In this document: positions 825 through 23,285 of the stretch, one piece after another
How the letters are laid out: every line of letters starts with the position of its first letter
Position numbering within the stretch: the first letter of the stretch is position 1
IMG/VR virus record: IMGVR_UViG_3300042446_000085
Coordinates: 1 to 23,443 of that record
DNA: 23,443 bases
Origin: a virus
Direction: 5' to 3' (one strand)
The notes under the pieces: model-generated
What the model saw: the letters and a program-made list of their open reading frames with translations, nothing else
Told to the model about the DNA's origin: nothing
Database searches by the model: none
Position numbers and translations under genes: made by a program

Positions 825-3800
825 TTAACTTGTGAATGTTCCGCTGCCAGTGAATGTATGGTAAGTGAAACCACCTGCTGATGTTATTGTTCCGCCTGTG
901 CCAACTGTGCCACCTGAATAACGGATAATAACAATGCCACTACCACCTGCAAATCCGGCTCCACCATCACCACCGCCTCCACCACCGGTATTGGCAGTTC
1001 CTGCTGAGGCTCCACCTTGAGCGGTGCCGAATCCACCTTGGCCACCACCACCGCTACCGCCAGCACCACCAGCAGCATTGACGTTATTACCGCCTCCACC
1101 ACCACCTGCGTAGGTAGTTCCGTTAAACCAAGTTCTACCTGCTCCACCAACACCTGCAACACTGCCGCTTGTGGCATTTCCACCAACTGCACCTGCGCCA
1201 CCTCCACCACCACCTGGATAGTTAGGAACGTTGAAGCCTCCATTGGATCCACCGTTATTACCTTGACCAGCGGTTCCAGTTCCACCTGCGTAGGTTCCAC
1301 TGCCTGTTTGTCCAGCACCACCACCTGATCCACCTGAACCTGGTGTGTTAGTGCTCCAAGCACCACCGCCACCACCTGTTGAAGTTGATACGCTGGCGAT
1401 ACTTGAGTTATTACCATTACCACCGTTGGATGTGCCACCGCTTACAGTTCCGCCTGCTCCAACAGTGATAGTATAACTTGTTCCACCTGTGACTGATATA
1501 GTGCCAGTTGAATAACCACCTGCGCCACCACCACCTTGATCACTGGCTCCACCACCGGCAACTACCAGGTAGTCAATGTTATATGAAGGAACAAATACAT
1601 CAGTATCGCCATCAATATAACGCCAATCATTCAATGTAGTATTGTAGTAGGCCAATTTGCCTGCATTGTCTGTAATGCTGGCCAATAATCCACTGCTGGT
1701 AGTTAGACTCTGTGTTCCACTTGCGGTACTTAATGTAATGCCAGGTCCTTGTGCTCCTGTTGCACCTACTGAACCAGTGAAACCAGTTGCACCATTAGTG
1801 CCTGCTGAACCAGTGAAACCAGTTGCACCATTAGTGCCTGCTGAACCAGTGAAACCAGTTGTGCCCTGAGTACCTTGGCTACCAGTATAACCGATATTGC
1901 CTTGGCTACCTGTGTAACCAACTTGGGCACTGCCGTTTAATGTTAAACTTCCATCCGCCACGCTTAGTGCATTACCACCAAGATAGATAGTGGCAGTTGA
2001 AACATACAAACTACGCCACTGTGTGCTGGTTGATCCTAGATCCCAAGTGCTGTCTGCATCAGGTAGTAGGTGTGTGCCAACCTTGACATTGCCGTTGTGC
2101 GGGTCAAGAATTAAATCACCATTACCGTGTGTGGTCAATGTAGCGTCAGCATTGTTGTCACCAATTCTAACTGTGTCAGCATTTAGGTTGATGTTGGCTG
2201 TGCCGTCTGCAACAATGTTAAAATCTTCCCCAGTTGGACCTTCTAGGTCTCCAGCTTCTATCTTAACTACGCCAGCAGTCAGTGTAACAGTGGCTGTGGT
2301 GAATTCTGCAATGTCAATACCAACCGGATCTCGCAGTTGAATTAGATCACTGTCAAAGTGAGTAAATCCACTGCTAATTTCTGCTCTCAGTGTTTCATCA
2401 AGATCATTGAATCTATGGTTAGGACTGAATAAATTGACTTCACTGTTATTGACAGCCAATATTCTAGTACCACTGTTGCTGATAGTAACTGTTCCGTCTG
2501 AGGCAAGATCTAAGTTGCTGGCAACATCGTCACCTGAACTTAGAAACATACCTTGATAGTATGGATTTACTATTCTTGGTTTAGTTCCATCAATACCAAC
2601 TTGAATTCTAGCAGTGTCTAAATTAACCGTGTCGGAAGTTAATCCAATTGTGGCTGTGCTAAATGACGCAACGTTTGAATTGCCGGCATCGGCTTGTATT
2701 ACAACACCGAACGAGGTAACGCTTAGGAAACCTGTGCTACTTCCGTGTCCTGTTGTCAATTGAAGATCGTAAGCACCATTACTAGAGATAAGAGCCGGAG
2801 CACTGCCACTACCAAATCCAGCACCATTACTGTTAAGATTTAAGAATTGTGTGCTACCAGTTGAATTGTAGAAAACATGACTGTTACTATTATAAATGTT
2901 AAATCTATCACTTAATTCTAAACGAGTTGTTTCACTGGTTGTGCCGCTATTGACAGTGTTAAATGTAATTGATGCACCACGAGCACTGCCTGTAAAAGTT
3001 TCTAACGCATTGACTCTAATTTGAGCACCACGCGATCCATTACCAGTTTGACTGTTAGCAGTTTGTCCGTTAAACAATAATCTACCAATATTGTCTCCAC
3101 GTAGAATAGCGTTTCTACGACCACTAACACCGTTCTTACGACCACTAACAAATGTAATTGCATTAGTGTCATTCAGGGTAGTGTTGTCAGCACCACTGTT
3201 CATAGTCATTGAACTTACAGTCTGACTTGTGCCCACTGTGTAGGTTCCAGTACCGCCTGTGGCAGTTCCTAAGGCTGTAATGAATGTGCCCGAAGTGACT
3301 CCAGTGGCATAAACTCTTTGACCAATGCTTAAAACTCCACTGCTAACTGCCGTAACGTCCAGTGTTGTTCCACTGATACTGGCTGTGAATACTGCGGCAT
3401 CTTCACTTGGAACACCTAAAATTACATGCTTGGAATTGATGGATAAAATACTAGTAGCACCATGGCCAGAGTGTGTATCAATACCATTGCTCATTGTCAA
3501 TGTGGCAAATGTGTTGTCTGCCTGTCCTAACAATAAACTGTGTGTAGGTGGAGCACTGCTTGATCCAGCTGTTTGTGCAGTCAATATGTCAAAGTGTCTG
3601 CTGGTTGAGTTTAATTGAACGCCTAGTGGCTGACTCTGAATAAACCAGCGAGCACCTGCGTTGGTTGCTGTGGTTGCATTACCTGCCCAGTTTTCTGTAG
3701 CCAGTGCAACAAAACGGACTGCATTGAATTGTTCTTGACTCCAGCGAGTACCGTCATAACCACCAAAGTTGATTACACCTAATCCAGCACCGCTTAGAAC

Positions 3801-4628
3801 AGCGGTTGGACTTGTGTGTGTTCCACGACTGCCTTCAAGAAACAGTTGTGCTGTGCCCATAGTGGTAGTGGTAACAGTTCCTGGAAAGTTCTGACCAAAA
3901 CCACGGACTACTGCACTGGCCATTATACCACTAGTGTAGTTGCTGACTACCAATGCTGGGCTTTGTGTGTTGGCAGTGGCAATCAGTGCTAGACCGTTGC
4001 TATCAACTGGATAACCACCTGCTGAAACTACATCTTGAGTAACAACACTGTTGAATATTACATTGCTGTTTGTGTTTAATGTTTGGTTTGCACTTATACC
4101 AGCACTACCAGTGAAACCAATATCACCTTTACTACCGACGAATCCAGTATCACCTTGACTACCAGTGTAGCCAGTTGCACCTTCACCAGAACTACCTGTA
4201 TAACCTAGATCACCTTTACTACCAGTGAATCCATTAGTTCCGTTTGTGCCAGCACTGCCGGTATAACCTAGATCGCCTTTACTACCAACAAATCCAGTTG
4301 TGCCTTGTGATCCAGTAAATCCTGTAGTACCTTGACTACCTGTGAAACCCGTAGGTCCAATTAATTCTGCTCGACTCGTAATGGCTGTTCCGGTGTCGGC
4401 TGCAAATACCAATGTGTTGATAGTTGCAATATTATCTATAGTAATATCATAAAATTCTACACTGTCTAAAGGACCAACTAATTGCTCAGGACTGGCCAAT
4501 ACACCACCAATAGTAACTCCGTCACCTATGTATAATTTTTCGGTATCTGTAGTAAAGACTGGTTCGCCTTCTGCAAATACTGTTGTTAATCTTTGGGCAT
4601 CTGTGCCGCGTCTAATTTGTAATCCCAT
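825..4628 (-). CDS. Large tail fibre: Mtd-like N-terminus, collagen-like repeats, glycine-rich adhesin C-terminus
   Basis: A 1267-residue fibre. Residues about 3-42 ([11 protein letters not shown] to IGDGVTIGG) match the major-tropism-determinant N-terminal domain found at the base of many phage fibres, which probably attaches it to the tail. Residues 91-177 are Gly-X-Y collagen-like repeats (GFT, GSQ, GYT, GSA triplets), interrupted once near residue 149. Residues 180-900 are Ser/Thr/Asn-rich with beta-helix-like character, including an [20 protein letters not shown] segment typical of phage fibres. A second collagen-like block spans about 904-962. From about 1018 (DYLVVAGGG) to about 1240 the chain is glycine-rich, like polyglycine-II adhesins such as the S16 gp38 tip, ending in [13 protein letters not shown]. 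The role inferred is receptor binding. AAGGAAAGATT precedes the ATG. Confidence 0.88.
1743..1919 (-). repeat. Second collagen-like block of the large fibre
   Basis: About 59 codons encode uninterrupted Gly-X-Y triplets dominated by GYT, GSQ, GAT, GFT and GSA. It sits between the long beta-rich shaft and the glycine-rich tip domain, a likely rigid triple-helical spacer placing the adhesin away from the shaft. It contains the 36-bp DNA tandem repeat listed separately. Confidence 0.8.
1771..1861 (-). repeat. 36-bp tandem repeat, about 2.5 identical copies
   Basis: Two exact copies of a 36-base unit lie at 1771-1806 and 1807-1842, followed by 19 bases of a third copy at 1843-1861. The unit is 12 codons long and encodes a [12 protein letters not shown]-type dodecapeptide, so gain or loss of a unit keeps both the reading frame and the Gly-X-Y phase. 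Confidence 0.9.
4098..4358 (-). repeat. First collagen-like block of the large fibre
   Basis: About 87 codons encode Gly-X-Y triplets ([21 protein letters not shown]). The phase slips once by two residues (GE near residues 148-149). The DNA repeats are imperfect, unlike the exact tandem copies in the second block. Confidence 0.8.
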
Positions 4629-5600: not shown

Positions 5601-8600
5601 TTAAAATATAACGCTTCCGTTTGAAGTCCATTTGTAATATCGGTAGTCACCAACTTCTGTTATTGTTGCGTTAATGGTGTAGGCAACAGGTATAATATTT
5701 TTAAGTGTTCTTATAATAACAACACCACTACCACCTGCACCACCGTTTCGGCCACCAACACCACCTCCGCCACCTCCGCCAGTATTGGCTGTGCCCGATG
5801 TTCCAATTAAATTACCAAAACTGCCACCAGCTCCGCCACCACCTACGCCACCTGCGCCTGGAGGGAATCCATTGAAGTTGGTAGATCCACCGCCACCACC
5901 TGCGTAGGTAACGCCGTCTAACCATGTCTTTCCTGCACCACCTGCACCGCCATACCCATATGGAGGATCTAAGAATGGTGGAGGTGGAAAATATGAATCA
6001 GCATTACCGCCAACTGCGCCTGCACCACCGCCACCTCCACCAAAGATATTGTCAAGGTAGGAAGTAGCATTGCCACCTGCATTGCCTTGCCCAGCAACGC
6101 CATTGCCCACTGCACCGCTGCCTGAGCCGCCACCTGATCCTCCATTGTCACCGAATGTCTTTTGGCCTATTCCGTTAGAACCGCCAAATCCACCACCAAC
6201 AGCAACTATAGATCCAAAGCTACTAGGTTTTCCTGACATAGCTCCTGTGTATATAGAATTAATAATAGAAACAGTTTGTGATTGTGTTGAAGAATATCCA
6301 TAGACACTGCCAACTGGAGCTCCTCCCTGACCTATAATAATTTCAATCTGTTCTCCAAATACAATGCTTTGTGTTCCTGTGACCATTGCGCCTGCTCCAC
6401 CTCCACCAGATCCATGAGCAGGATTATATCCGCCTGCACCCCCGCCGCCGACAACTAGATAATCTAATGATGGGCGTGTAGATGTAGAACTTGCGTAGAT
6501 ATCAAATGGATTAAATCTACCATACTCTAATGGTAAAGAAAGTGTTCCCGGCCATTTTGCATGTAAAGTAGTTGTGATATCACCATCTGGGATTGCACCA
6601 CTAGGTAAATCTAATCTAGCCACTTGTCTATCAGTAGCAAATGAATAGGTAGTGGTTGTTGTAAAATCTGGATCAAAGAACATTAATGTATCATTGCGTC
6701 CTGTTGTTCCCGGAACAGTTTTACCCTTTTGTCCTAGACCAAATGCCATTGCCCATTCATTGTAGAATTCAGCAAGATTATCAGCCTCTGCGTTTCCTGG
6801 ATTAGTAGATGCCCAATACTTCTGACCATAGTCAGTGTATCGTTGATCTTCTATTGTGCTGTATGGCAAAGTAGATATACTGCCCGGAACACCGGTAGCT
6901 GGATAACCACTTAGTTTATAAGTGTTGTTTTTAACAGCACCGGTTGTGGGATCCTGCCAATTATCAATCCAAGCAAATGTAGTATAGTACTGTCCTGTAG
7001 CTGCTTGATTTAATGCAGGTCCAGGAGAAGTGTTTGGTGAAGTAGGAGGCAGGAATGCTGTTGGTTTAACAACGTCTTGACTTCTGTTTAGGCTTGTTGA
7101 AAACTTAACAAGCCTAAATCCACCATTAGGAATAGTAGTTCCATCACTATAAGTGCTGGTGGTAACTGGATTAGGCAAAGTTAGTTCTTCAGTTCCACCA
7201 CCGATGTTGTGTTTAAATTCTGTATTGGCCTGAGGAATTGTAGGAGTAAATTTAAACAGCTTGACCTTAATAGTGCTTCTTGACTGTGTGCCTGCCTTTT
7301 GTGCAGCATTTTCAATAGGCTTAGTCCATTCAACTTCTCCAATGTATTCAACTAGATCAATGTATCTTGTCTTAACTGGATTTTGATAAATCTGTGTTAG
7401 ATAATTTGTTTCATCAATAGCATTAGAAACATTATATCTTGTGCCAGTTACTCTGCTAGTATATGGTTGAACTTTGAAATACAATCTTGTAGGAGTTGAT
7501 GTGGTCATGGCAGTAGTTCTATTACCATAGAAATCACTGGCTAAACCTACAACATTATAACCATCTGCTGTGCCAATGGTATCAGTTTTGTAAATGTCAA
7601 ACAGTTCAACTTGAACAGTTCCAGTCTGTTCATAATCGAATAATCTGTTTATCGATCCTGCACCAGCAGGGGTGCCAGCAGGCGCACTATTAACAGGTGC
7701 TCGAATAACACTTGGCAAATTGAATGTGTAGGCAAGACTTGTTATAGTACTGACAAAGTCTTTAGTCCAAGTTGTTCCGGTGGTAATTGGATCTAAGATT
7801 TCACTGATGTTGGTTCCAGTGACTAGACTTAGGTTGTAATTGCTACCATTATAATACTTGAATAGTCTAAAGGCATTGACTGTCTTGACATTCTCTGAAT
7901 ACTTTTGAACACCGAAATAGTTTTTATTTAGAATAAATTGATCAGCAGTTTGGTTATTAATGTTTGTTCCAAATTCAATCTGCAATCCCTGAGTTGTAAA
8001 TCTACGTGATGTGTAATCGAAACCTTGACGGAATCTTATTGGCACTCCATTTCTTACTCTAACTACGACATCTGGTTCAGCATTCCAAGGAATGTATGGT
8101 GCTCCAGCTGCTGAAGTAAGTGAATCCCATTTCCAAGTTCTGTTAAAGTCTTGAACAGGTTGAGCAGTAAAGATATCATAAGATGCTGTGCTGCTGCTCC
8201 AACCAGCATAACCTTTTAGACCTACATTAAGTGCTCTATAACTATCAAAGTTTCTTTCTATGCCTCCGCCTGCTGCTGCCGCAGATCCACTCTTGACACT
8301 TGAAGTTGTTTGAACAGTGGTCAATACCATTCTAGACCAACTGCTGGTATCAATCTCCATTACATTGTATAAGAATGTTACAGTATTGACCAATGTAATG
8401 GTGTTGAGGGCAGATACTTTAACAATGTCATTAGTTGGTGTTCTGTCTAGTGTAACTATAGGAGTTGGCACCAAATCATTGCCTAGTCTAACTATGTGTG
8501 TTAGAGTATTACTGGTGCTGGGCAAGTTAGCATTGATTAAACTCTGTCCTAAATCACCAGGATAACTGGCAGTGATAGTCCAAGTGCCAGTTGTGGTTAT

Positions 8601-10034
8601 CAATATATTACTCACAGTAAAACTACTAGATCCACTGTTGTTGCCTGAAAATAATACTGTGCTAGTGCTGCCATTGTTTGCTATTAGGCTAATGTTGGTA
8701 TAATAGGTAGCAGTGTTAGTGCCCACTGTTATATCAAAGGTTTCATCAAAATAAGTTGAAGTGCTACTCTGTGTTATGGTCAGTGGGAAGGGTTGTCCTA
8801 CAACAGTCACGCTGGTACTAGTGGCAACATTTATAGTAGTTGATGTTGAACCAGCACGATATCTACCCAATGTTTGATAACCCCAATTGCTGGTCACAGT
8901 TTCCACATTGGACACAAACAAAGTGGCAGTATATCGTGTGCTGTTCTGTGTGCTGGTTGTTATGGTGTATTGTGTTTCAGGATACAATCTTGCCACATCA
9001 ATCATTGAACTATCAACTGTAAAGTTAGCCGAAGCTTGTCCATTGACAAAGTTGCTGTTTAATATATTTGTTTCAGTAAAAGGTGTAAATCCATTGACCA
9101 ATTTGATACTAACTGGATTAGAAATAGCAACACCTGTGGCAGTGAATGCCGGATCTGCAATAACACCTAATCTATAATTTACTATATGATTAGGAAAATA
9201 ATATGCTAGGTTTGGTGTAAAAGTCGAAGTGGTTACAATTAAAGGAACACCTGCTTCAACACGAACATTTAAGGTATTCGAAGTTGCTGAACGATATATA
9301 CCTCTAGGCTGACTCACTGCATAGATGTCATAAGTTCCAATAGGCAAATTAGGATCAGTAGGCAATACCAATGTAGCCACAGTGCCCGTAAAGAAACTGG
9401 TGCCTAATATAACATCAGTGCCAGTGCTTACTCTAAAAAATCTTACTCTAGTTGCATTAACACCTAGATCAATAGCCATATCTGTAGTGGCTGTCAATGT
9501 TAGATTGTCACCAAATACAATGCCAGCTTCACCTGTTAGTGTAAGATTGCTAGGTATGGAATAAATTGGAAAGAAATTAAAATCTTCAGTAGGGTCACCA
9601 ATCTCAACACCTGGTTCCCAATTTTGTATGAATCCTATTTGTTGTGCATAGGTAGTGACCCCATCAAACCACTCAAGATGCACCACTGTCAATGGGACAT
9701 GAAAGTCACCACCTGGCAAGATAGGACCACTATACATATTTGCAGGAATACTGATAACACCTGAACTATACTGAGTGGCTGTGCTGCCTTCAAAATAACC
9801 TATAACTTGACTGTCTTCGACATTAGGAATGTAGCCAGTGGCCTGACTTGAATAACTGACCTTATCCAGTATCAATGTTTCCCAACTGATGGTTGCTGGC
9901 CAAGATGCGGTGCCGCCGCCTGCCACTGCAAAGTTATACGTCTGTTGATTACTAGGAAAGGTTTGACCTAAATTCGTCAGAGTTTGAAGTGTATTTAGGT
10001 ATCTTTTGTAGTCTAAAATGCCGGTTTGTGCCAT
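5601..10034 (-). CDS. Giant tail fibre with Ig-like repeats and glycine-rich adhesin C-terminus
   Basis: A 1477-residue protein, the largest in the window. Residues 1-157 form an attachment-type domain duplicated as a separate gene downstream. Residues about 160-265 and about 380-520 are Ser/Thr-rich beta strands resembling bacterial Ig-like repeats (NLTLTATTDMAIDLG, then GTATLVLP-type turns and GTYDIYAV). The middle, about 540-1180, is a long mixed region with many aromatic residues that I do not recognise. From LDYLVVGGGG at about 1190 to VVIIRTL at about 1440 the sequence is glycine-rich, like polyglycine-II phage adhesins, and ends with YRYYKWTSNGSVIF. It directly follows the J-like tip protein, so a central or side fibre that binds the receptor is likely. 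The stop of the upstream gene overlaps the AAGGAAAGATT ribosome site. Confidence 0.85.
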   Translation of the reverse strand: MAQTGILDYKRYLNTLQTLTNLGQTFPSNQQTYNFAVAGGGTASWPATISWETLILDKVSYSSQATGYIPNVEDSQVIGYFEGSTATQYSSGVISIPANMYSGPILPGGDFHVPLTVVHLEWFDGVTTYAQQIGFIQNWEPGVEIGDPTEDFNFFPIYSIPSNLTLTGEAGIVFGDNLTLTATTDMAIDLGVNATRVRFFRVSTGTDVILGTSFFTGTVATLVLPTDPNLPIGTYDIYAVSQPRGIYRSATSNTLNVRVEAGVPLIVTTSTFTPNLAYYFPNHIVNYRLGVIADPAFTATGVAISNPVSIKLVNGFTPFTETNILNSNFVNGQASANFTVDSSMIDVARLYPETQYTITTSTQNSTRYTATLFVSNVETVTSNWGYQTLGRYRAGSTSTTINVATSTSVTVVGQPFPLTITQSSTSTYFDETFDITVGTNTATYYTNISLIANNGSTSTVLFSGNNSGSSSFTVSNILITTTGTWTITASYPGDLGQSLINANLPSTSNTLTHIVRLGNDLVPTPIVTLDRTPTNDIVKVSALNTITLVNTVTFLYNVMEIDTSSWSRMVLTTVQTTSSVKSGSAAAAGGGIERNFDSYRALNVGLKGYAGWSSSTASYDIFTAQPVQDFNRTWKWDSLTSAAGAPYIPWNAEPDVVVRVRNGVPIRFRQGFDYTSRRFTTQGLQIEFGTNINNQTADQFILNKNYFGVQKYSENVKTVNAFRLFKYYNGSNYNLSLVTGTNISEILDPITTGTTWTKDFVSTITSLAYTFNLPSVIRAPVNSAPAGTPAGAGSINRLFDYEQTGTVQVELFDIYKTDTIGTADGYNVVGLASDFYGNRTTAMTTSTPTRLYFKVQPYTSRVTGTRYNVSNAIDETNYLTQIYQNPVKTRYIDLVEYIGEVEWTKPIENAAQKAGTQSRSTIKVKLFKFTPTIPQANTEFKHNIGGGTEELTLPNPVTTSTYSDGTTIPNGGFRLVKFSTSLNRSQDVVKPTAFLPPTSPNTSPGPALNQAATGQYYTTFAWIDNWQDPTTGAVKNNTYKLSGYPATGVPGSISTLPYSTIEDQRYTDYGQKYWASTNPGNAEADNLAEFYNEWAMAFGLGQKGKTVPGTTGRNDTLMFFDPDFTTTTTYSFATDRQVARLDLPSGAIPDGDITTTLHAKWPGTLSLPLEYGRFNPFDIYASSTSTRPSLDYLVVGGGGAGGYNPAHGSGGGGAGAMVTGTQSIVFGEQIEIIIGQGGAPVGSVYGYSSTQSQTVSIINSIYTGAMSGKPSSFGSIVAVGGGFGGSNGIGQKTFGDNGGSGGGSGSGAVGNGVAGQGNAGGNATSYLDNIFGGGGGGAGAVGGNADSYFPPPPFLDPPYGYGGAGGAGKTWLDGVTYAGGGGGSTNFNGFPPGAGGVGGGGAGGSFGNLIGTSGTANTGGGGGGGVGGRNGGAGGSGVVIIRTLKNIIPVAYTINATITEVGDYRYYKWTSNGSVIF

Positions 10035-11944: not shown

Positions 11945-12397
11945 TTATTCCTTAATATAAGTTCGTTCAGTGCATCTAAAGCCACGACGCTCTAGATCAC
12001 ATGAATCAGTTGATGTCATCATGCTGGTAAAATATGCAGTAATCTTACCTTGCTGTTTGAGTTCATCTCCTTTTAGACAGTATTGCTTGAACAATCTACC
12101 TGCCGTTGTTGAATTTCTTTTCTCAGGCACCACATACCAAATCAATTCACGTAGTTGTGTGTGCTTGGGATTCCATATGTTGGGTTCTCTGATAGCAATC
12201 AATATGCCCACTGGTTCTTCATCATCAAACGCCAACCACACATAACCATTGTTGAGAAATGTGAAGGCCAACTTGCCCAAGTGCTCAACGTCCTTACTGG
12301 CTTCTAATCCTTGATCGTAGCTGGTATCGGTGAGGAACCGCTGCATCAACTTGATCATGTGACGTGCATCCATAAGTGTGTGGGCCTGCTTGATCAT
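11945..12397 (-). CDS. GNAT-family N-acetyltransferase in the tail-tip module
   Basis: A 150-residue protein with the GNAT fold order: an N-terminal strand and helices, strand pair VWLAFDDEEPVGILIAI (53-69), a central strand ELIWYVVPEKR (84-94), and the acetyl-CoA loop and following helix RNSTTAGRLFKQY (94-106). The C-terminal part has RRGFRCTERTYIK, the usual last strands. It would transfer an acetyl group from acetyl-CoA; the substrate cannot be read from sequence. It overlaps the upstream minor tail gene by TAATG and its stop overlaps the ribosome site of the J-like gene, so it is co-expressed with the tail tip. It occupies the place where lambda has K and I. A role in modifying a tail protein or a host target is inference. 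Confidence 0.75.
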   Translation of the reverse strand: MIKQAHTLMDARHMIKLMQRFLTDTSYDQGLEASKDVEHLGKLAFTFLNNGYVWLAFDDEEPVGILIAIREPNIWNPKHTQLRELIWYVVPEKRNSTTAGRLFKQYCLKGDELKQQGKITAYFTSMMTSTDSCDLERRGFRCTERTYIKE

Positions 12398-16267: not shown

Positions 16268-16558
16268 TTATTTCCTTTTCATAATTGCATCTGTGGTCTT
16301 CTTAACGAAAGCCTCAGTGGGTCTTGTCATACCATCAGGTGCCTGACGACTACGACCATCATCTAACTGTTGTGCATACGGGTAAGCGGCAACGATAGTG
16401 TCTTTCTTTAGAACAGTACGACTACGAGCATTGCCAGTCTTGATAGGAGTATGAGCCTTAAAGAAGGTGTAGGCCTGTCCAGGCACTGCATCCAACTGTG
16501 CTATTTTCTTCTTAACACTTGTGCTAATCTTATCAACACCTATCTTTAATGAAATCAT
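16268..16558 (-). CDS. HK97 gp10-like tail/neck protein
   Basis: A 96-residue basic protein. It contains HTPIKTGNARSRTV, then a strand and YPYAQQLDDGRSRQAPDGMTRPT. This matches the HK97-gp10 pattern in which a proline-rTG element is followed by YA-xx-(L/V)-(E/D)-xG and a final helix. The family functions in head-tail joining or tail completion. Its ATG overlaps the stop of the frameshifted chaperone frame (ATGA). Finding it between the chaperone and the tape measure is unusual; the usual place is before the major tail protein. Confidence 0.65.
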   Translation of the reverse strand: MISLKIGVDKISTSVKKKIAQLDAVPGQAYTFFKAHTPIKTGNARSRTVLKKDTIVAAYPYAQQLDDGRSRQAPDGMTRPTEAFVKKTTDAIMKRK

Positions 16559-17087
16559 GCTCTATCCTTTATCTTTAGCAATTCTTCTGTTGAAACTTCA
16601 GGCACATAACCTTCTTGGCTAGCATCCTGAAAGTGTCTCTCCAGTGACATTGCAGTGTCCATAATTACTAGATCAAATGTGTTTGCCCTTACTATGACTT
16701 CACTGGGCAACATTCCATAGCGTTTGCTCAGATTATCAATTGTTATGATTAAACTTGATTCGATACTGTTAGGATCTATGGACTCCTGTGTTACTTTCCC
16801 AGCGTTTCTACTACCTTGCCAATAACTTTGGTCATTACATTGGTAGGCAAAACTAATCCGTCCTTGACAACAGGCGCACCCTCTTCATCAAGAACCATAT
16901 CATTTACGGCAGCAATCAATTCACTCATGTCCTCGCCCTTCATCTGTGCCAGACGGATAAACTTGTCCATAGGCTGACGATCCCAGATCCAGAACTCTAG
17001 GGCTTCACCGAACTCTTTAACGACATCCTCGTCTGCGATTTCGATCTTAACTAATTGTGGTTTTGCTGCTAATTGTGTGAGTTTCAT
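16555..17087 (-). CDS. Tail assembly chaperone, -1 frameshift fusion (gpGT-like)
   Basis: The -1 frame is open from the slippery site to a TGA at 16555-16557, with no start of its own needed. It adds 79 residues to the 98-residue G-like protein, giving about 177 residues. The extension reads VTQESIDPNSIESSLIITID, then LSKRYGMLPSEVIVRANTFD and IMDTAMSLERHFQDA, the RYGxLPSEV pattern that is common in T-type chaperone domains. In lambda, gpG and gpGT bind the tape measure and recruit tail-tube subunits without entering the virion; the same role is inferred here. The stop overlaps the ATG of the gp10-like gene, so frameshifted ribosomes could reinitiate there. Confidence 0.85.
16791..17087 (-). 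CDS. Tail assembly chaperone, short form (gpG-like)
   Basis: A 98-residue acidic protein beginning MKLTQLAAKPQLVKIEIADE, with FGEALEFWIWDRQPMDKFIRLA and a C-terminal helix VMTKVIGKVVETLGK. It sits between the tail tube gene and the tape measure, the invariant location of tail chaperones. The stop codon TAA directly follows a lambda-type slippery heptamer, which gives the longer product described above. AAGGA lies seven bases before the ATG, inside the end of the preceding 55-residue gene. Confidence 0.85.
   Translation of the reverse strand: MKLTQLAAKPQLVKIEIADEDVVKEFGEALEFWIWDRQPMDKFIRLAQMKGEDMSELIAAVNDMVLDEEGAPVVKDGLVLPTNVMTKVIGKVVETLGK
16794..16800 (-). promoter_or_regulatory. Programmed -1 frameshift site, GGGAAAG
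   Basis: On the minus strand the zero-frame codons are CTG GGA AAG TAA, so the heptamer is G-GGA-AAG, the same sequence used by the lambda G/T genes. Slipping back one base re-pairs as GGG AAA and continues as GTA ACA CAG. The following -1 frame is open for 79 codons. A weak SD-like AAGG lies about 13 bases upstream of the heptamer; no strong downstream stem was found by eye. Confidence 0.87.
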
Positions 17088-18748: not shown

Positions 18749-19612
18749 TTAGATTGAGCTGTCGAATACTGCGCTTACGCCGTATCCTTCATAGACAACA
18801 CCTGTGCCATACATAGCAGAGCAAACAACATCAGTACCGATAGCACGGGCACGTCTTTGTGTTTCGATCTGAATGTCACGCATTAGACCAAAGCCTAGAG
18901 CGTCGCGGTGGAAAATAGCACCTTGATAGTCGCCAGCAGCGCCGTTAGTAATCAACGGGCAGTTAGCACTTTCAAACACTTGAACACCAAATAAGTTTCC
19001 AACATAACCCATACGTAGGGCTTCGTTAGCAACATCACCATAAGCGCCACCTGTGAAAGCCACAGCGCCTTGAGTTGTCAATGCAGCCTTTAGGTCATAG
19101 GCAATGCTTGGGTGTAGAACAGCTACGATTCCGTCTGTAGGAACAGCAGCAGCCTTCAACTTAGTGATACCTTGCATAACCAATGCAGCAGTAATAGTTG
19201 TAGAACTAGAACCGATCACGTTAGTTGTGAAGTTAGCAAATTGAGCCATTAAGTCTTGGTCAATTTTACGAGCAACTGCTTCACCGAATAAACGGCCTAG
19301 GTCAGCAACCACGTTGCTTGCTGAAGCATTGACAGCTAGGTCAGTAACCATAGTCATCAAACCAACTTGTCCAACGTTGAAAGTAGCAACATCAGTAGAA
19401 ACTGCTGTATTGCTGAAGTCATCACCTTCTGTTAAACTTGCCGCAGTTTGCACTGGGTAAATTGGTACTTGAATTGTTTTGCCTTGTGTAGGGGCTAGAG
19501 AATAGTTCTTAACCAATCCTCTCATGATAGAACGCTCATTAGCTACGAACATTGCCTCTTGGACAATGGTAGGTAATAGGTCGTTTAATGTTACGCTTGT
19601 AGATCCAGCCAT
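18749..19612 (-). CDS. Major capsid protein (HK97-fold)
   Basis: A 287-residue protein starting MAGSTSVTLNDLLPTIVQEA. Features typical of HK97-fold capsids are an N-arm, a strand-loop (GKTIQVPIYPVQTAA), a long spine-like helix region (DLGRLFGEAVARKIDQDLMA), a P-domain segment (DGIVAVLHPSIAYDLKAAL) and a closing strand (GALFHRDALGFGL-like, AIFHRDALGFGLM). There is no N-terminal delta scaffold domain; scaffolding is supplied by the preceding gene. AGGAG lies upstream of the ATG. It would be the most abundant virion protein. Confidence 0.88.
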   Translation of the reverse strand: MAGSTSVTLNDLLPTIVQEAMFVANERSIMRGLVKNYSLAPTQGKTIQVPIYPVQTAASLTEGDDFSNTAVSTDVATFNVGQVGLMTMVTDLAVNASASNVVADLGRLFGEAVARKIDQDLMAQFANFTTNVIGSSSTTITAALVMQGITKLKAAAVPTDGIVAVLHPSIAYDLKAALTTQGAVAFTGGAYGDVANEALRMGYVGNLFGVQVFESANCPLITNGAAGDYQGAIFHRDALGFGLMRDIQIETQRRARAIGTDVVCSAMYGTGVVYEGYGVSAVFDSSI

Positions 19613-19630: not shown

Positions 19631-20299
19631 TTAGGCTATCCCTGCAGACTTTCTATACTCTTGATAGATTTTACGATCTGCTGGGTTTGACATGTTTAAT
19701 TTTGTTATGTCAAATTTCTCTCGTGATTGATTAACATTGCTCTTACTCTGTGTAGTGGCTGGGCCTGCTGATTTAAAGTGCGGGTTGCTGTCTAAGAATT
19801 CTTTAACTAGGTCCTCTACCTTGAAAGGCTGTCCTTTGTCTGAATATCTCACTGTGCCTTTTTCATCTAGCACTTCAACTTCACCCGTTTCACCTAATCT
19901 AAGATTAGACTTTAATAACGCTTGCACCTGCTTGGGATTTACTGCACCTAATTGTGCTGCCGTATTGACCAAGGGCATATCTACAGTGTAAGATTTAATA
20001 ATCTCATCACGCTTGCTTATTTCTGCATCTTTCTTAGCAGCCAGTTCAGCAATGATTTTATCAAAGTCGCCACGCTTCTTTTGAAGCTCTAGCTGTTGCT
20101 GTTCATGTGTTGCTCGTAATTGACGCAGTTCGTCAATATCACCTAGGTCGGCAAGTGTCTTTTCGTACTTCTTCTGGACTGCACCTTTTGTGCGGGCCAT
20201 CATGTTATCGACTTCTTCTTGCGTATAAGTTTTTACTGACTGTGCCTGGATTGTTTCGGAAGACCCAGTATCTTCATTAGCCAATGTATTGTCTGACAT
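19631..20299 (-). CDS. Capsid scaffolding protein
   Basis: A 222-residue, highly charged protein. Residues 25-110 form a long Lys/Glu/Gln-rich coiled coil (EEVDNMMARTKGAVQKKYEK onward). A following segment (LVNTAAQLGAVNPKQVQALL) is conserved in phage scaffolds, and the C-terminal 60 residues are polar with NPADRKIYQEYRKS. It lies between portal and major capsid genes, the normal place for a separate scaffold. It should guide capsid assembly and leave before packaging. AAAGG lies ten bases before the chosen ATG. No protease motif is visible. Confidence 0.8.
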   Translation of the reverse strand: MSDNTLANEDTGSSETIQAQSVKTYTQEEVDNMMARTKGAVQKKYEKTLADLGDIDELRQLRATHEQQQLELQKKRGDFDKIIAELAAKKDAEISKRDEIIKSYTVDMPLVNTAAQLGAVNPKQVQALLKSNLRLGETGEVEVLDEKGTVRYSDKGQPFKVEDLVKEFLDSNPHFKSAGPATTQSKSNVNQSREKFDITKLNMSNPADRKIYQEYRKSAGIA

Positions 20300-20332: not shown

Positions 20333-20385
20333 ATGACTCCGGGATGAAGTCATCAGTGTTTCTATTTATTGAATGTGCAATAAAT
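20333..20385 (-). other. Two adjacent inverted repeats in the gap before the scaffold gene
   Basis: In the 88-base gap between the 28-residue gene and the scaffold gene, ATGACT/AGTCAT forms a 6-bp stem with a 9-base loop (20333-20353), and an AT-rich 8-bp stem ATTTATTG/CAATAAAT encloses a 6-base loop (20364-20385). Neither ends in a T-run on the minus strand. They may be RNA structures or chance. Confidence 0.35.
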
Positions 20386-20387
20386 GG

Positions 20388-20474
20388 TTATCGTTTAGGT
20401 GGTTTAGGACGCTTTTTGTTCTTTGCAGTACGCATTCCACGAACTGGTAGGGGGCTGTGTTCTTGTTGTTCCAT
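20388..20474 (-). CDS. 28-residue basic peptide between portal and scaffold
   Basis: A short frame reading MEQQEHSPLPVRGMRTAKNK and ending RPKPPKR. Ten of its 28 residues are Lys or Arg, concentrated in the C-terminal half. AAAGGA lies seven bases before the ATG, better than the ribosome sites of several larger genes here, and the ATG is 17 bases after the portal stop. I do not recognise it. A basic tail could bind DNA, RNA or an acidic partner such as the scaffold; this is inference. A chance ORF of this size is possible, but the ribosome site argues against it. Confidence 0.55.
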   Translation of the reverse strand: MEQQEHSPLPVRGMRTAKNKKRPKPPKR

Positions 20475-20491
20475 TTTGTTTTCCTTTAGGT

Positions 20492-22051
20492 TTAACTTTC
20501 GTACTCTTCCATTGCTTCCCACTTGGCACACCAGAACACTGCACGAACTGGAGCGTCAAACTTGGTGCAATACAATTCACCGGGCTTGTAATATTCACAG
20601 TTACCGCAGTTTTGTCCTGCAGGAACATCTGGGTTATCTGCTGGTTGATATGCTGCTGGCAAGTTAGCGTTGATCTCTTCACCATCAGGATACAGTCTGC
20701 CTGGCTGTGGGTTAGGATCGATGAAAGGCAAGCGAGCCTTTTCTTCGCCCAACATTTCAACTATGTGTTCATCAATGATGCGGAATACAACAGGGTCAGT
20801 GGCTGCTGCCTTGGCCTGCTGTAGGTGTGTAAATTCTCTGTCATCATCCTGGATTGAGAATGTGTCCGGGTACTTGATTTCGCCCATCCATACACGATTC
20901 TGATACTGCCCATACAATTGCCAAATCTGTTCTTCAGCAAGTTCTAGGTTGTCTGCTTTCTCACTTAGTTTTGCACTTAGTAAGTTGAACTCCACTTCCA
21001 TAGCAATGCCGCTTTGCACTTTCTTAACAGTACTGCGAACTCCGCCTGTGAATGAAATGCGATCAATGGCTTCAACCAACTTGTCTATGGTGGTATGAAT
21101 GTTGCCCACGCTGGTTCCACCTGCTTCTAGGTAGTAGGGGTTAAGTCCAGGATCACTGCCTTCTTGCAATTGAATGATAGCACCAGCACCACTTCCTAAC
21201 TGTGCTGTAGGCGGAACCACTAGACTAGGGTGTCCATCTAAGCGGATTGCCTGTTCATTCTCAGAAGTTAAGTTATAGATTTGGCGCTGTAGATCTGAGA
21301 TGTCATTGATATCACTAACGCCAATGTCCTTGGTGATACCACGCTGGTTATAGACCAACACTGCGGGGATCTTGCCCAACTGATTCTCTTCTTCAGTTTC
21401 TAAGTAGGCTTCTTTCTTAACATCATCCATTATCCAAGTCTTGATTGACTCACGGGTCCATTCTTTAATAACTGTCAGCTTGTCAATGACTTCTTCAACA
21501 TACTTAAAATAAACCAACTCATAACGTCCGCTAGGAGTACGCTCCCACTTCCAATCACTTACCACTAAAGGTGTGATAAGATTCACATAGGGGCGCACAC
21601 CAGCAGCCTGCTCTTGTGCTGCTGTGACTAGATCAAAGTTAGGCTTGGCCATAACAACCCAAGCGTGTCCAAATACGCTAGACCAAATGCTGACCTGCTT
21701 CATAAAACTGTCGAAGTCTCTGCCTTCCATGTCAGCATCACGTAAAAAACTTTCAACATCGGGCAAATATTCCCAATCGTTCAAATCACGTTCCGCAGTT
21801 TCACGGAATAAGAAACTTACATAAGTCTGAATAACTGACTGTGCGTGATTGTCTAGGGGTGTGTTGTCAAGGCGTGCGTTGTATTCGTTTTCTGTTTCTA
21901 GAACATACTTGGTCAAGTGTCCTGAACGACGATATTCTTCTCCGCCAACATATGATTCATATAGAAACTGCCAGCGATCTCTGTTTCTCATGTAGAGCCA
22001 GTGCGTTGATGCAAGGGCTGTGTAGTCGTCTAGTAGCGTTTGATTAGCCAT
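20492..22051 (-). CDS. Portal protein with C-terminal four-cysteine domain
   Basis: A 519-residue protein directly after the large terminase, five bases from its stop, where portal genes lie. N-terminal landmarks are WLYMRNRDRWQFLYESYVGG and HAQSVIQTYVSFLFRE; the middle has TPLVVSDWKWERTPSGRYEL, KIPAVLVYNQRG, a DISDLQRQIYNLTSENEQAI stem-like helix, and ISFTGGVRSTVKKVQSG before a long helix. It forms the ring through which DNA is packaged. The last 40 residues carry Cys482, Cys485, Cys495 and Cys508 in a CX2CX9CX12CX2W array, unusual for a portal and suggestive of a zinc or iron-sulphur site. AGGA overlaps the terminase stop upstream. Confidence 0.85.
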   Translation of the reverse strand: MANQTLLDDYTALASTHWLYMRNRDRWQFLYESYVGGEEYRRSGHLTKYVLETENEYNARLDNTPLDNHAQSVIQTYVSFLFRETAERDLNDWEYLPDVESFLRDADMEGRDFDSFMKQVSIWSSVFGHAWVVMAKPNFDLVTAAQEQAAGVRPYVNLITPLVVSDWKWERTPSGRYELVYFKYVEEVIDKLTVIKEWTRESIKTWIMDDVKKEAYLETEEENQLGKIPAVLVYNQRGITKDIGVSDINDISDLQRQIYNLTSENEQAIRLDGHPSLVVPPTAQLGSGAGAIIQLQEGSDPGLNPYYLEAGGTSVGNIHTTIDKLVEAIDRISFTGGVRSTVKKVQSGIAMEVEFNLLSAKLSEKADNLELAEEQIWQLYGQYQNRVWMGEIKYPDTFSIQDDDREFTHLQQAKAAATDPVVFRIIDEHIVEMLGEEKARLPFIDPNPQPGRLYPDGEEINANLPAAYQPADNPDVPAGQNCGNCEYYKPGELYCTKFDAPVRAVFWCAKWEAMEEYES

Positions 22052-22055
22052 GTTA

Positions 22056-23285
22056 TTATCCTATTTTATGTCCCCACTGCCTTACAGGCGGAGTGGTAGT
22101 TGGTTGTCTAATGGGGAACAAATAATCCACCATGTATCTCAGTGAGTCATTAAGGTGATCAAACCCACTGTCTTTATCCGGTATGCTAGTGCCTTCTTTA
22201 TAAGTCTGTTTCTCGAGACACTCGATAGCATATTTACACTTGGGGTCGAAGAACAGTGTAGTAACCCCACTAGAACTTAACAGTTTGGCATTGACAGCGT
22301 TGATTCCGTCGCGGACTGCATTGTGTGCGTGTGGTGCTTTCACTGTGAAACCTGCTGTTCTCAGTATGGTATGATCAGTACGACCACCCGCTGAAGTCTT
22401 ACGCTGTGCTCCTGCTGGGTCAGGGTAGGCTATGATGGTGTGTCCTGGGTAGCGTGTTTTTACTTCTTCTACCAGTTCTTCAGTGTTAGATCCAAATATC
22501 TTAAACTCATCAATGATGTGCATGGTGTTGCCAGTCTTTACACCTAACACTGCTGACATTGGGTCAATGTTAAAATCAACGCCCAGATGCAGTTCTTTAG
22601 GCAGTGGATCAGTGTAGGCTTTTACGTTATGCTTGCGATCAAATGCGTAGAATATCCTGCCCGAGAATGTTTCAAATGTTGCACGAAACTCTTGGTTGAA
22701 TGTGCGAGCATCTAGACTGCGGCGTGCTGCTTCTATTTCAGTTATTGAAACATTGCCGCCTTGCTCTGTAGTGTATTGAAAACTGGCCCACTCATCAGGA
22801 TACTCTTGTGCTAGGTCATATAAGTCTTTGGCCCAGTTCATACCTTTAGGTGTGCCAATAAACAGTGCAGAACCCATCTTGTCTGCTAGCGTGGGTCTAA
22901 GAGTTTCAGTCCAGGCTTCTTCATCAATGTCCGCAAACTCATCCATTACTAGAAAGTCTAAGCCCACACCCCTTAAACTGTCATAGTTGTCCGCACCTTT
23001 AAGACTAATTGTTGAGCCATTCTTCAGTTCGAAACTCATATTAGTTTCATTGATCTTACTGACCCAACGCAGTTCTTGTAATTTCTTACGCAACTTCTTA
23101 AACACAACCATCTTGGCCTGTTTGTATGTAGGATAAACGGCCCAAACTTCCTTGTCAGGCAGTCGTGCTGCCTTGCATAGTTCTCTGATAGCCAAGTGAG
23201 TCTTACCAAAACGGCGGCCAGCAATGACCACTTTGAATCGCTGTGGTGCATCTATAATTTCACGTTGTGGATTACTTAAAGGCAT
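22056..23285 (-). CDS. terL: Terminase large subunit
   Basis: A 409-residue packaging ATPase-nuclease. The Walker A motif AGRRFGKT is at 22-29, Walker B FLVMDE at 111-116, and the coupling motif GTPKG at 144-148. The nuclease domain shows GVDFNIDP (Asp237), a second acidic motif YPDPAG (Asp289), and DHLNDSLRY near the end (Asp376/Asp380). It cuts concatemeric DNA and pumps it through the portal using ATP. The ATG overlaps the stop of the small membrane-peptide gene (TGATG) with no clear ribosome site of its own, so it probably depends on coupled translation. Length is typical of the family. Confidence 0.95.
   Translation of the reverse strand: MPLSNPQREIIDAPQRFKVVIAGRRFGKTHLAIRELCKAARLPDKEVWAVYPTYKQAKMVVFKKLRKKLQELRWVSKINETNMSFELKNGSTISLKGADNYDSLRGVGLDFLVMDEFADIDEEAWTETLRPTLADKMGSALFIGTPKGMNWAKDLYDLAQEYPDEWASFQYTTEQGGNVSITEIEAARRSLDARTFNQEFRATFETFSGRIFYAFDRKHNVKAYTDPLPKELHLGVDFNIDPMSAVLGVKTGNTMHIIDEFKIFGSNTEELVEEVKTRYPGHTIIAYPDPAGAQRKTSAGGRTDHTILRTAGFTVKAPHAHNAVRDGINAVNAKLLSSSGVTTLFFDPKCKYAIECLEKQTYKEGTSIPDKDSGFDHLNDSLRYMVDYLFPIRQPTTTPPVRQWGHKIG

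Follow-up and report, generated by a model that had tools for sequence, protein, structure and literature searches.

Iron-sulphur clusters in phage particles have so far been described in the tail tip, where the hub protein of the lambda gpL, RcGTA and R4C type, a virion structural protein of many phages, holds a cluster through four cysteines (PMC10721106, PMC10276861). Portal proteins are known for C-terminal additions of other kinds. In 80alpha/SaPI1 and in R4C the portal crown faces the DNA and is built from the C-terminus, whose last ~30 residues are disordered (PMC10541612, PMC10276861); described crown extensions include this disordered tail of 80alpha/SaPI1 and the barrel of P22 (PMC10541612). 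Our literature search, largely of papers available without subscription, found none on domains resembling high-potential iron-sulphur proteins (HiPIPs) in phage head proteins. The same search, with the same scope, returned no paper that discusses phage proteins machine-annotated as HiPIPs or fusions of such domains to portal and Dps proteins. Here we describe a portal protein that ends in a domain of this kind, encoded in a virus record of 23,443 bases (the whole stretch that was analysed, hereafter the window).

The portal gene and its neighbourhood

By profile matches and modelled fold, the 519-aa product of the gene at 20492..22051 (minus strand, as are all window features given below with a strand) is an SPP1 gp6-like phage portal. 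It matches SPP1_portal PF05133 in Pfam (E 1.6e-8) and the portal family phrog_145 (E 2.5e-55), and its full-length model resembles solved portals (E 1.9e-15 to 8xb5). The gene sits between the terminase large subunit (22056..23285, minus) and the genes of the head scaffolding protein (19631..20299, minus; phrog_206 E 5.6e-13 and context) and the major capsid protein (18749..19612, minus), with terminase and capsid both assigned by profile matches and context.

Several other features of the window were recorded. Two large tail proteins (825-4628 and 5601-10034) have a common glycine-rich C-terminal region, and the first contains collagen-like GFTGSQG repeats as well. Among the tail genes, a 150-aa ORF (11945-12397) is similar by eye to GNAT acetyltransferases. 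Short ORFs of 98 and 96 aa (16268-17087) precede the likely tape-measure gene, a place in which one would expect to find a frameshifted tail assembly chaperone.

Conservation of the four-cysteine domain

The preliminary description had read a CX2CX9CX12CX2W pattern at the portal end (20528-20608), with a Trp just before and another three residues after the last Cys; pattern and quoted bases proved exact, and the two residues are Trp507 and Trp511. The four cysteines, which conservation marks as predicted cluster ligands, are Cys482 (20606..20608, minus), Cys485 (20597..20599, minus), Cys495 (20567..20569, minus) and Cys508 (20528..20530, minus), the last being flanked by the two tryptophans. 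The portal has no other cysteine. Pfam HIPIP, AlphaFold2, Foldseek and hhalign results together support a HiPIP-like domain of residues 463-511 (NLPAAYQPADNPDVPAGQNCGNCEYYKPGELYCTKFDAPVRAVFWCAKW; 20519..20665, minus).

For conservation we relied on 80 portals collected by core patterns, that is, found without using the tail, which avoids a bias towards the domain. The domain was present in 22 of these, with every cysteine intact. All 22 retain Cys482, Cys485, Cys495, Cys508, Trp507, Pro465, Val502 and Tyr468, the last an invariant residue upstream of the cysteine cluster (20648..20650, minus) that may correspond to the conserved tyrosine of HiPIPs; Trp511 is kept in 21/22. Aromatic residues around the cysteines are conserved in the phage domains (Y468, Y487, Y488, F498, W507 and W511). 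Mean identity in this set was 0.70 for the domain vs. 0.60 for the portal core, placing the domain 10th among 162 sequence windows. An apparent rank as the most conserved part of the portal (0.886 vs. 0.60 for the core), obtained from loci fetched with the domain pattern itself, was rejected as inflated by selection.

Loss of the cysteines in close relatives had been named beforehand as the result that would speak against a domain. All of them are kept wherever the domain is present, and there are also close relatives that are without the whole domain, e.g., L009, with 79% identity in the portal core.

Relationship to high-potential iron-sulphur proteins

The resemblance to HiPIPs that the preliminary description drew from cysteine spacing extends to homology beyond spacing, as judged by Pfam, PDB profile search, hhalign and predicted fold. 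The profile check that it had proposed for the portal tail gave a match to HIPIP (PF01355) above the curated cut-off of 22 bits when the last 57 residues were searched in isolation (24.4 bits, E 3.6e-5), although the full-length portal scored only 19.3 bits, below that cut-off. Among 32 diverse members of the phage domain family, HIPIP was matched by 18, every other Pfam family by at most one, and zinc-binding families by none. The best single-sequence PDB match of the domain was the HiPIP PioC, a 54-residue chain (E 0.029), and HiPIPs made up 13/16 PDB matches of a profile built from eight phage domains (best E 0.003). That profile also found a genuine betaproteobacterial HiPIP, L095 (PF01355 E 3e-17), and a larger phage-domain profile, scored against 17 bacterial HiPIPs, gave E below 0.001 for 15, with E calculated within this small panel. 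In a scan of genome contigs, in which chromosomal carriers are poorly sampled, the phage profile picked out a single locus, a bacterial HiPIP.

Profile-profile alignment of the phage domains with bacterial HiPIPs (hhalign) gave a probability of 94.7%, compared with at most 3.7% in 40 column-shuffled controls in which the cysteine columns were held fixed, and 0.1% for the reversed alignment. Since shuffles with fixed cysteines score so low, the match is not due to cysteine spacing alone.

The phage domains have the CX2C ... C ... CX2[FYW] layout of the HiPIP family. They depart from HiPIPs in two respects. The long middle loop of the larger HiPIPs is absent, in agreement with the shorter middle initially remarked on, and one position of the family signature has changed. 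A PROSITE-type HiPIP signature reads C-x(6,9)-[LIVM]-x(3)-G-[YW]-C-x(2)-[FYW]; in its strict form it was found in 15/17 bacterial HiPIPs vs. 0/32 phage domains. It fails in the latter because an aromatic residue stands where HiPIPs have Gly ahead of [YW]-Cys, and once the Gly position was freed and F allowed beside Y/W, 31 of the 32 phage domains fitted. By homology and predicted fold, the portal tail domain is a true member of the HiPIP family.

Predicted fold and position on the portal ring

AlphaFold2 was run on 68 residues of the portal tail with 29 homologues. The best model of the isolated domain reached a pLDDT of 93.4, and the five models were uneven (mean pLDDT 93 to 48). Foldseek comparison of this model with the PDB placed HiPIPs at ranks 1-14 and in 16/20 matches in all, with TM values of 0.46-0.56 and a best E of 0.065, which is supportive, not decisive by E-value. 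Comparison with viral models returned prohead proteases, XkdF, Dps, a portal and proteins already named HiPIP; match 25 in BFVD, a weak one, bears the name zinc-ribbon.

A chance four-cysteine pattern, with no domain behind it, can be discounted almost entirely. The small size of the region is the one point in its favour. Clustering alone argues otherwise (p about 4e-4 for four randomly placed cysteines of 519 residues falling within 27 residues; 1e6 trials), and the 22/22 conservation and the hhalign result with its cysteine-fixed controls rule it out, with the PDB profile and fold results pointing the same way.

A more substantial alternative is that the HiPIP-derived fold now binds zinc in a purely structural role, stabilising or shaping the C-terminal tail of the crown. 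Zinc is often bound at four-cysteine sites, no redox partner is visible here, the HiPIP glycine ahead of the last cysteine has been lost in the phage clade, and there is the one weak zinc-ribbon match in BFVD. The sequence, however, matches no zinc family, HIPIP alone recurs among the Pfam results, and the PDB profile matches are nearly all HiPIPs; the conserved aromatics around the cysteines would suit a hydrophobic [4Fe-4S] pocket, and close relatives manage without the domain. We regard this structural zinc reading as rather improbable, and on the choice of metal we think it likely that the site holds a [4Fe-4S] cluster rather than zinc.

In the full-length portal model the domain region is of low confidence, which is consistent with a flexible link to the rest of the protein. 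The domain would occupy the place of the disordered crown tail; by analogy with the crown C-termini of other portals, it would lie inside the head. HiPIPs are small, soluble, exported electron carriers, whereas the domain described here ends a 519-aa portal, at whose start inspection revealed no export signal.

Exchange of the portal tail among phages

Most of the 80 core-fetched portals (55) carry other, Cys-poor tails, and 3/80 are truncated before the tail. Mapped on a portal-core tree, presence of the domain changes 13 times, and 12 of these changes are forced by well-supported branches. The boundaries of exchange can be seen in DNA. Between the window and its nearest relatives, L011 (with a longer, different Cys domain) and L009 (with a Cys-free tail), DNA homology ends at codon ~437 and returns before the scaffold gene, and this homology break delimits an exchangeable cassette at the 3' end of the portal gene (20370..20740, minus). 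Likewise, the pair L061/L176 has ~90% DNA identity on either side of a swapped block of ~315 nt. As read from these sequences, change of the portal tail is by module exchange, not slow decay.

Two further tail types were observed. The commonest alternative has a conserved PHxMxxPxTGExxxARTxxEHLxxxAxGxxH motif (L009, L180, L191 and many of L167-L242). A helical-looking tail of ~50 aa, IQxMIMxGxTNxEIxxxxPxxTxxDI, appears to be another exchangeable portal module; it follows the HiPIP-like domain in L021, L022, L025, L189 and others and stands alone on the portal in L167, L168 and L176.

The scaffold and capsid of L009, which has no domain, are 77% and 85% identical to those of the window; therefore, basic assembly would not need the domain. 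The same identities led us to disfavour an essential role in scaffold docking. Each of nine domain-bearing records examined, and then five more, has a single copy. Where the portal is without the domain, no hidden second copy was found in 14 IMG/VR contigs (12-33 kb, possibly incomplete), and none lies elsewhere in the L009 contig. Nor was a ferritin or Dps found elsewhere in 20 contigs with or without the domain, these contigs again being possibly incomplete.

Frequent exchange could also reflect evasion of host defence, with the portal tail as a hypervariable cassette that escapes portal sensors (e.g., of the Avs4 type) and the HiPIP-like domain as one interchangeable filler. At least 12 switches of tail type on the portal tree, the sharp boundary near codon 437 and the swapped ~315-nt block would fit such an explanation, as would PDB 8dgf, in which a portal-sensing defence protein is bound to a portal. 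Within the HiPIP type, however, there is strong sequence conservation rather than diversification, the same domain is found on other proteins (see below), and the 8dgf sensor is not established as a reader of the portal C-terminal tail. We therefore consider sensor evasion very unlikely as the main explanation.

Other carriers of the domain

The domain is not confined to portals. In L089 (1339-2010), L093 (244-918) and L098 (3365-4156) it stands at the C-terminal end of a Dps/ferritin-like protein of 223-264 aa, with a HIPIP match in the domain and PF00210 in the Dps part (E about 1e-19 to 1e-20). In L089 the fusion gene directly follows a domain-less portal, both genes being complete enough for this to be seen. 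A Dps protein occupies the same post-portal slot in L194 (1478-2332), with the long Cys domain that is found on the L011 portal. The Dps/ferritin fusion in a phage head gene block, directly after the portal in L089 and L194, is itself unusual.

The long form, seen in L011 (1-1356), L194 (in the Dps gene above) and L248 (4566-5300), has CX2C...C-X12-C-X2-W plus one extra middle Cys. In phage DSL-LC01 and Manatee Spring phages it bears the annotation HiPIP, but Pfam HIPIP does not match it. All four combinations of short or long form with portal or Dps carrier occur.

The short form is also present in prohead-protease or DUF5824 proteins (Pontimonas phage phiPsal1, L090 and L120), in ADP-ribosyltransferases (L099 and L143; phrog_802 match) and in a HAD phosphatase/kinase-like protein (L128). 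In the Pelagibacter phages HTVC026P, HTVC202P and HTVC111P it is a separate 68-aa protein, which in HTVC026P is gp22, encoded upstream of the terminase gene and outside the head block; a profile search found no copy in pelagiphage HTVC112P. Carriers with neighbouring genes examined are mostly products of head-block genes or head-protein-like.

This range of carriers raises the possibility that the domain serves for docking or loading, holding proteins on the head or within it; its metal would then be structural only, and the carriers would be head-associated cargo. Fusion to functionally unrelated enzymes suits a location tag, as does the preponderance of head-block and head-protein-like carriers, and ADP-ribosyltransferases of the T4 Alt kind are carried inside phage heads, which would fit the ADP-ribosyltransferase carriers with their phrog_802 match. 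Yet the portal requires no anchor, at most one copy was found per record examined, so the tag is not on cargo and portal at once, domain-less portals share the same scaffold and capsid, and in the pelagiphages the domain has a gene of its own that lies outside the head block. On these grounds we judge a docking module to be unlikely.

Proposed function

Our preferred reading is that the last ~50 residues of the portal probably form a compact HiPIP-family domain at the crown end, most likely binding one [4Fe-4S] cluster through Cys482, Cys485, Cys495 and Cys508. Placed on the C-terminal crown, up to 12 copies would lie at the inner, DNA-facing mouth of the ring, where the predicted cluster could act as a head-resident redox or iron-handling accessory. 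It might, for example, take up or donate electrons and so keep oxidative damage to the packaged DNA low, or it might be a redox-sensitive switch on the portal. Such an accessory role is the most likely function in our view, but it is put forward tentatively. Dps proteins are known for oxidising and storing iron and for binding DNA. It can be argued from Dps as an alternative carrier, and from the equivalence of the two Cys forms, that metal chemistry near the head is a selected trait. It can likewise be argued from the patchy presence of the domain that the benefit is conditional; the domain would help in certain hosts or habitats, and basic assembly could proceed without it.

Two observations stand against a redox function: the HiPIPs known so far carry electrons after export, with no partner for such transfer visible here, and the ADP-ribosyltransferase and phosphatase carriers have no obvious redox role. 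The fuller proposal is speculative and somewhat doubtful. In it, up to twelve [4Fe-4S] clusters with redox activity would ring the portal mouth inside the head of some tailed phages, or the same cluster would be mounted on a Dps/ferritin-type protein instead, and this exchangeable module would sense or buffer iron or redox conditions while DNA is packaged or stored or enters the cell. Sequence and models suggest that some phage heads may contain iron-sulphur clusters. If true, an exchangeable HiPIP-type domain on portal or Dps proteins would put redox or iron chemistry beside packaged DNA and would bear on the open question of phage-borne iron. The question is already open to experiment, since pelagiphages in culture encode the domain as a free 68-aa protein (HTVC026P gp22 and its homologues in HTVC202P and HTVC111P).

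Comparison with known systems

The closest known relatives are the HiPIPs (PF01355), especially PioC of Rhodopseudomonas palustris TIE-1, which has the same CX2C-Xn-C-X12-C-X2-[aromatic] layout and is similar to the phage domain in size (54-residue chain), in hydrophobic and aromatic surroundings, and by profile and fold. HiPIPs are free carriers, whereas the phage domain is fused to a portal, has an aromatic residue for Gly before [YW]C and comes without an export signal. By homology the domain belongs to the HiPIP family; its setting is new, and one signature position differs. Some tailed-phage proteins already carry a machine annotation as HiPIP (e.g., in Synechococcus phage S-SRM01 and uncultured Caudovirales in BFVD, Actinomycetia phage DSL-LC01 and Manatee Spring phages); they too have a HiPIP-like Cys domain but, unlike the portal fusion, are mostly separate or differently fused proteins.

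The portal extensions of 80alpha/SaPI1 and P22 are likewise lineage-specific crown additions facing packaged DNA; they differ from the tail of the window portal in being helical or disordered, without cysteines or a domain of metal-binding type. The lambda gpL type lies in the tail tip, not the portal, and has unrelated cysteine spacing (173, 182, 205 and 212 in gpL). Its Fe-S domain is conserved across homologues, whereas the HiPIP-like domain of portals is an optional cassette.
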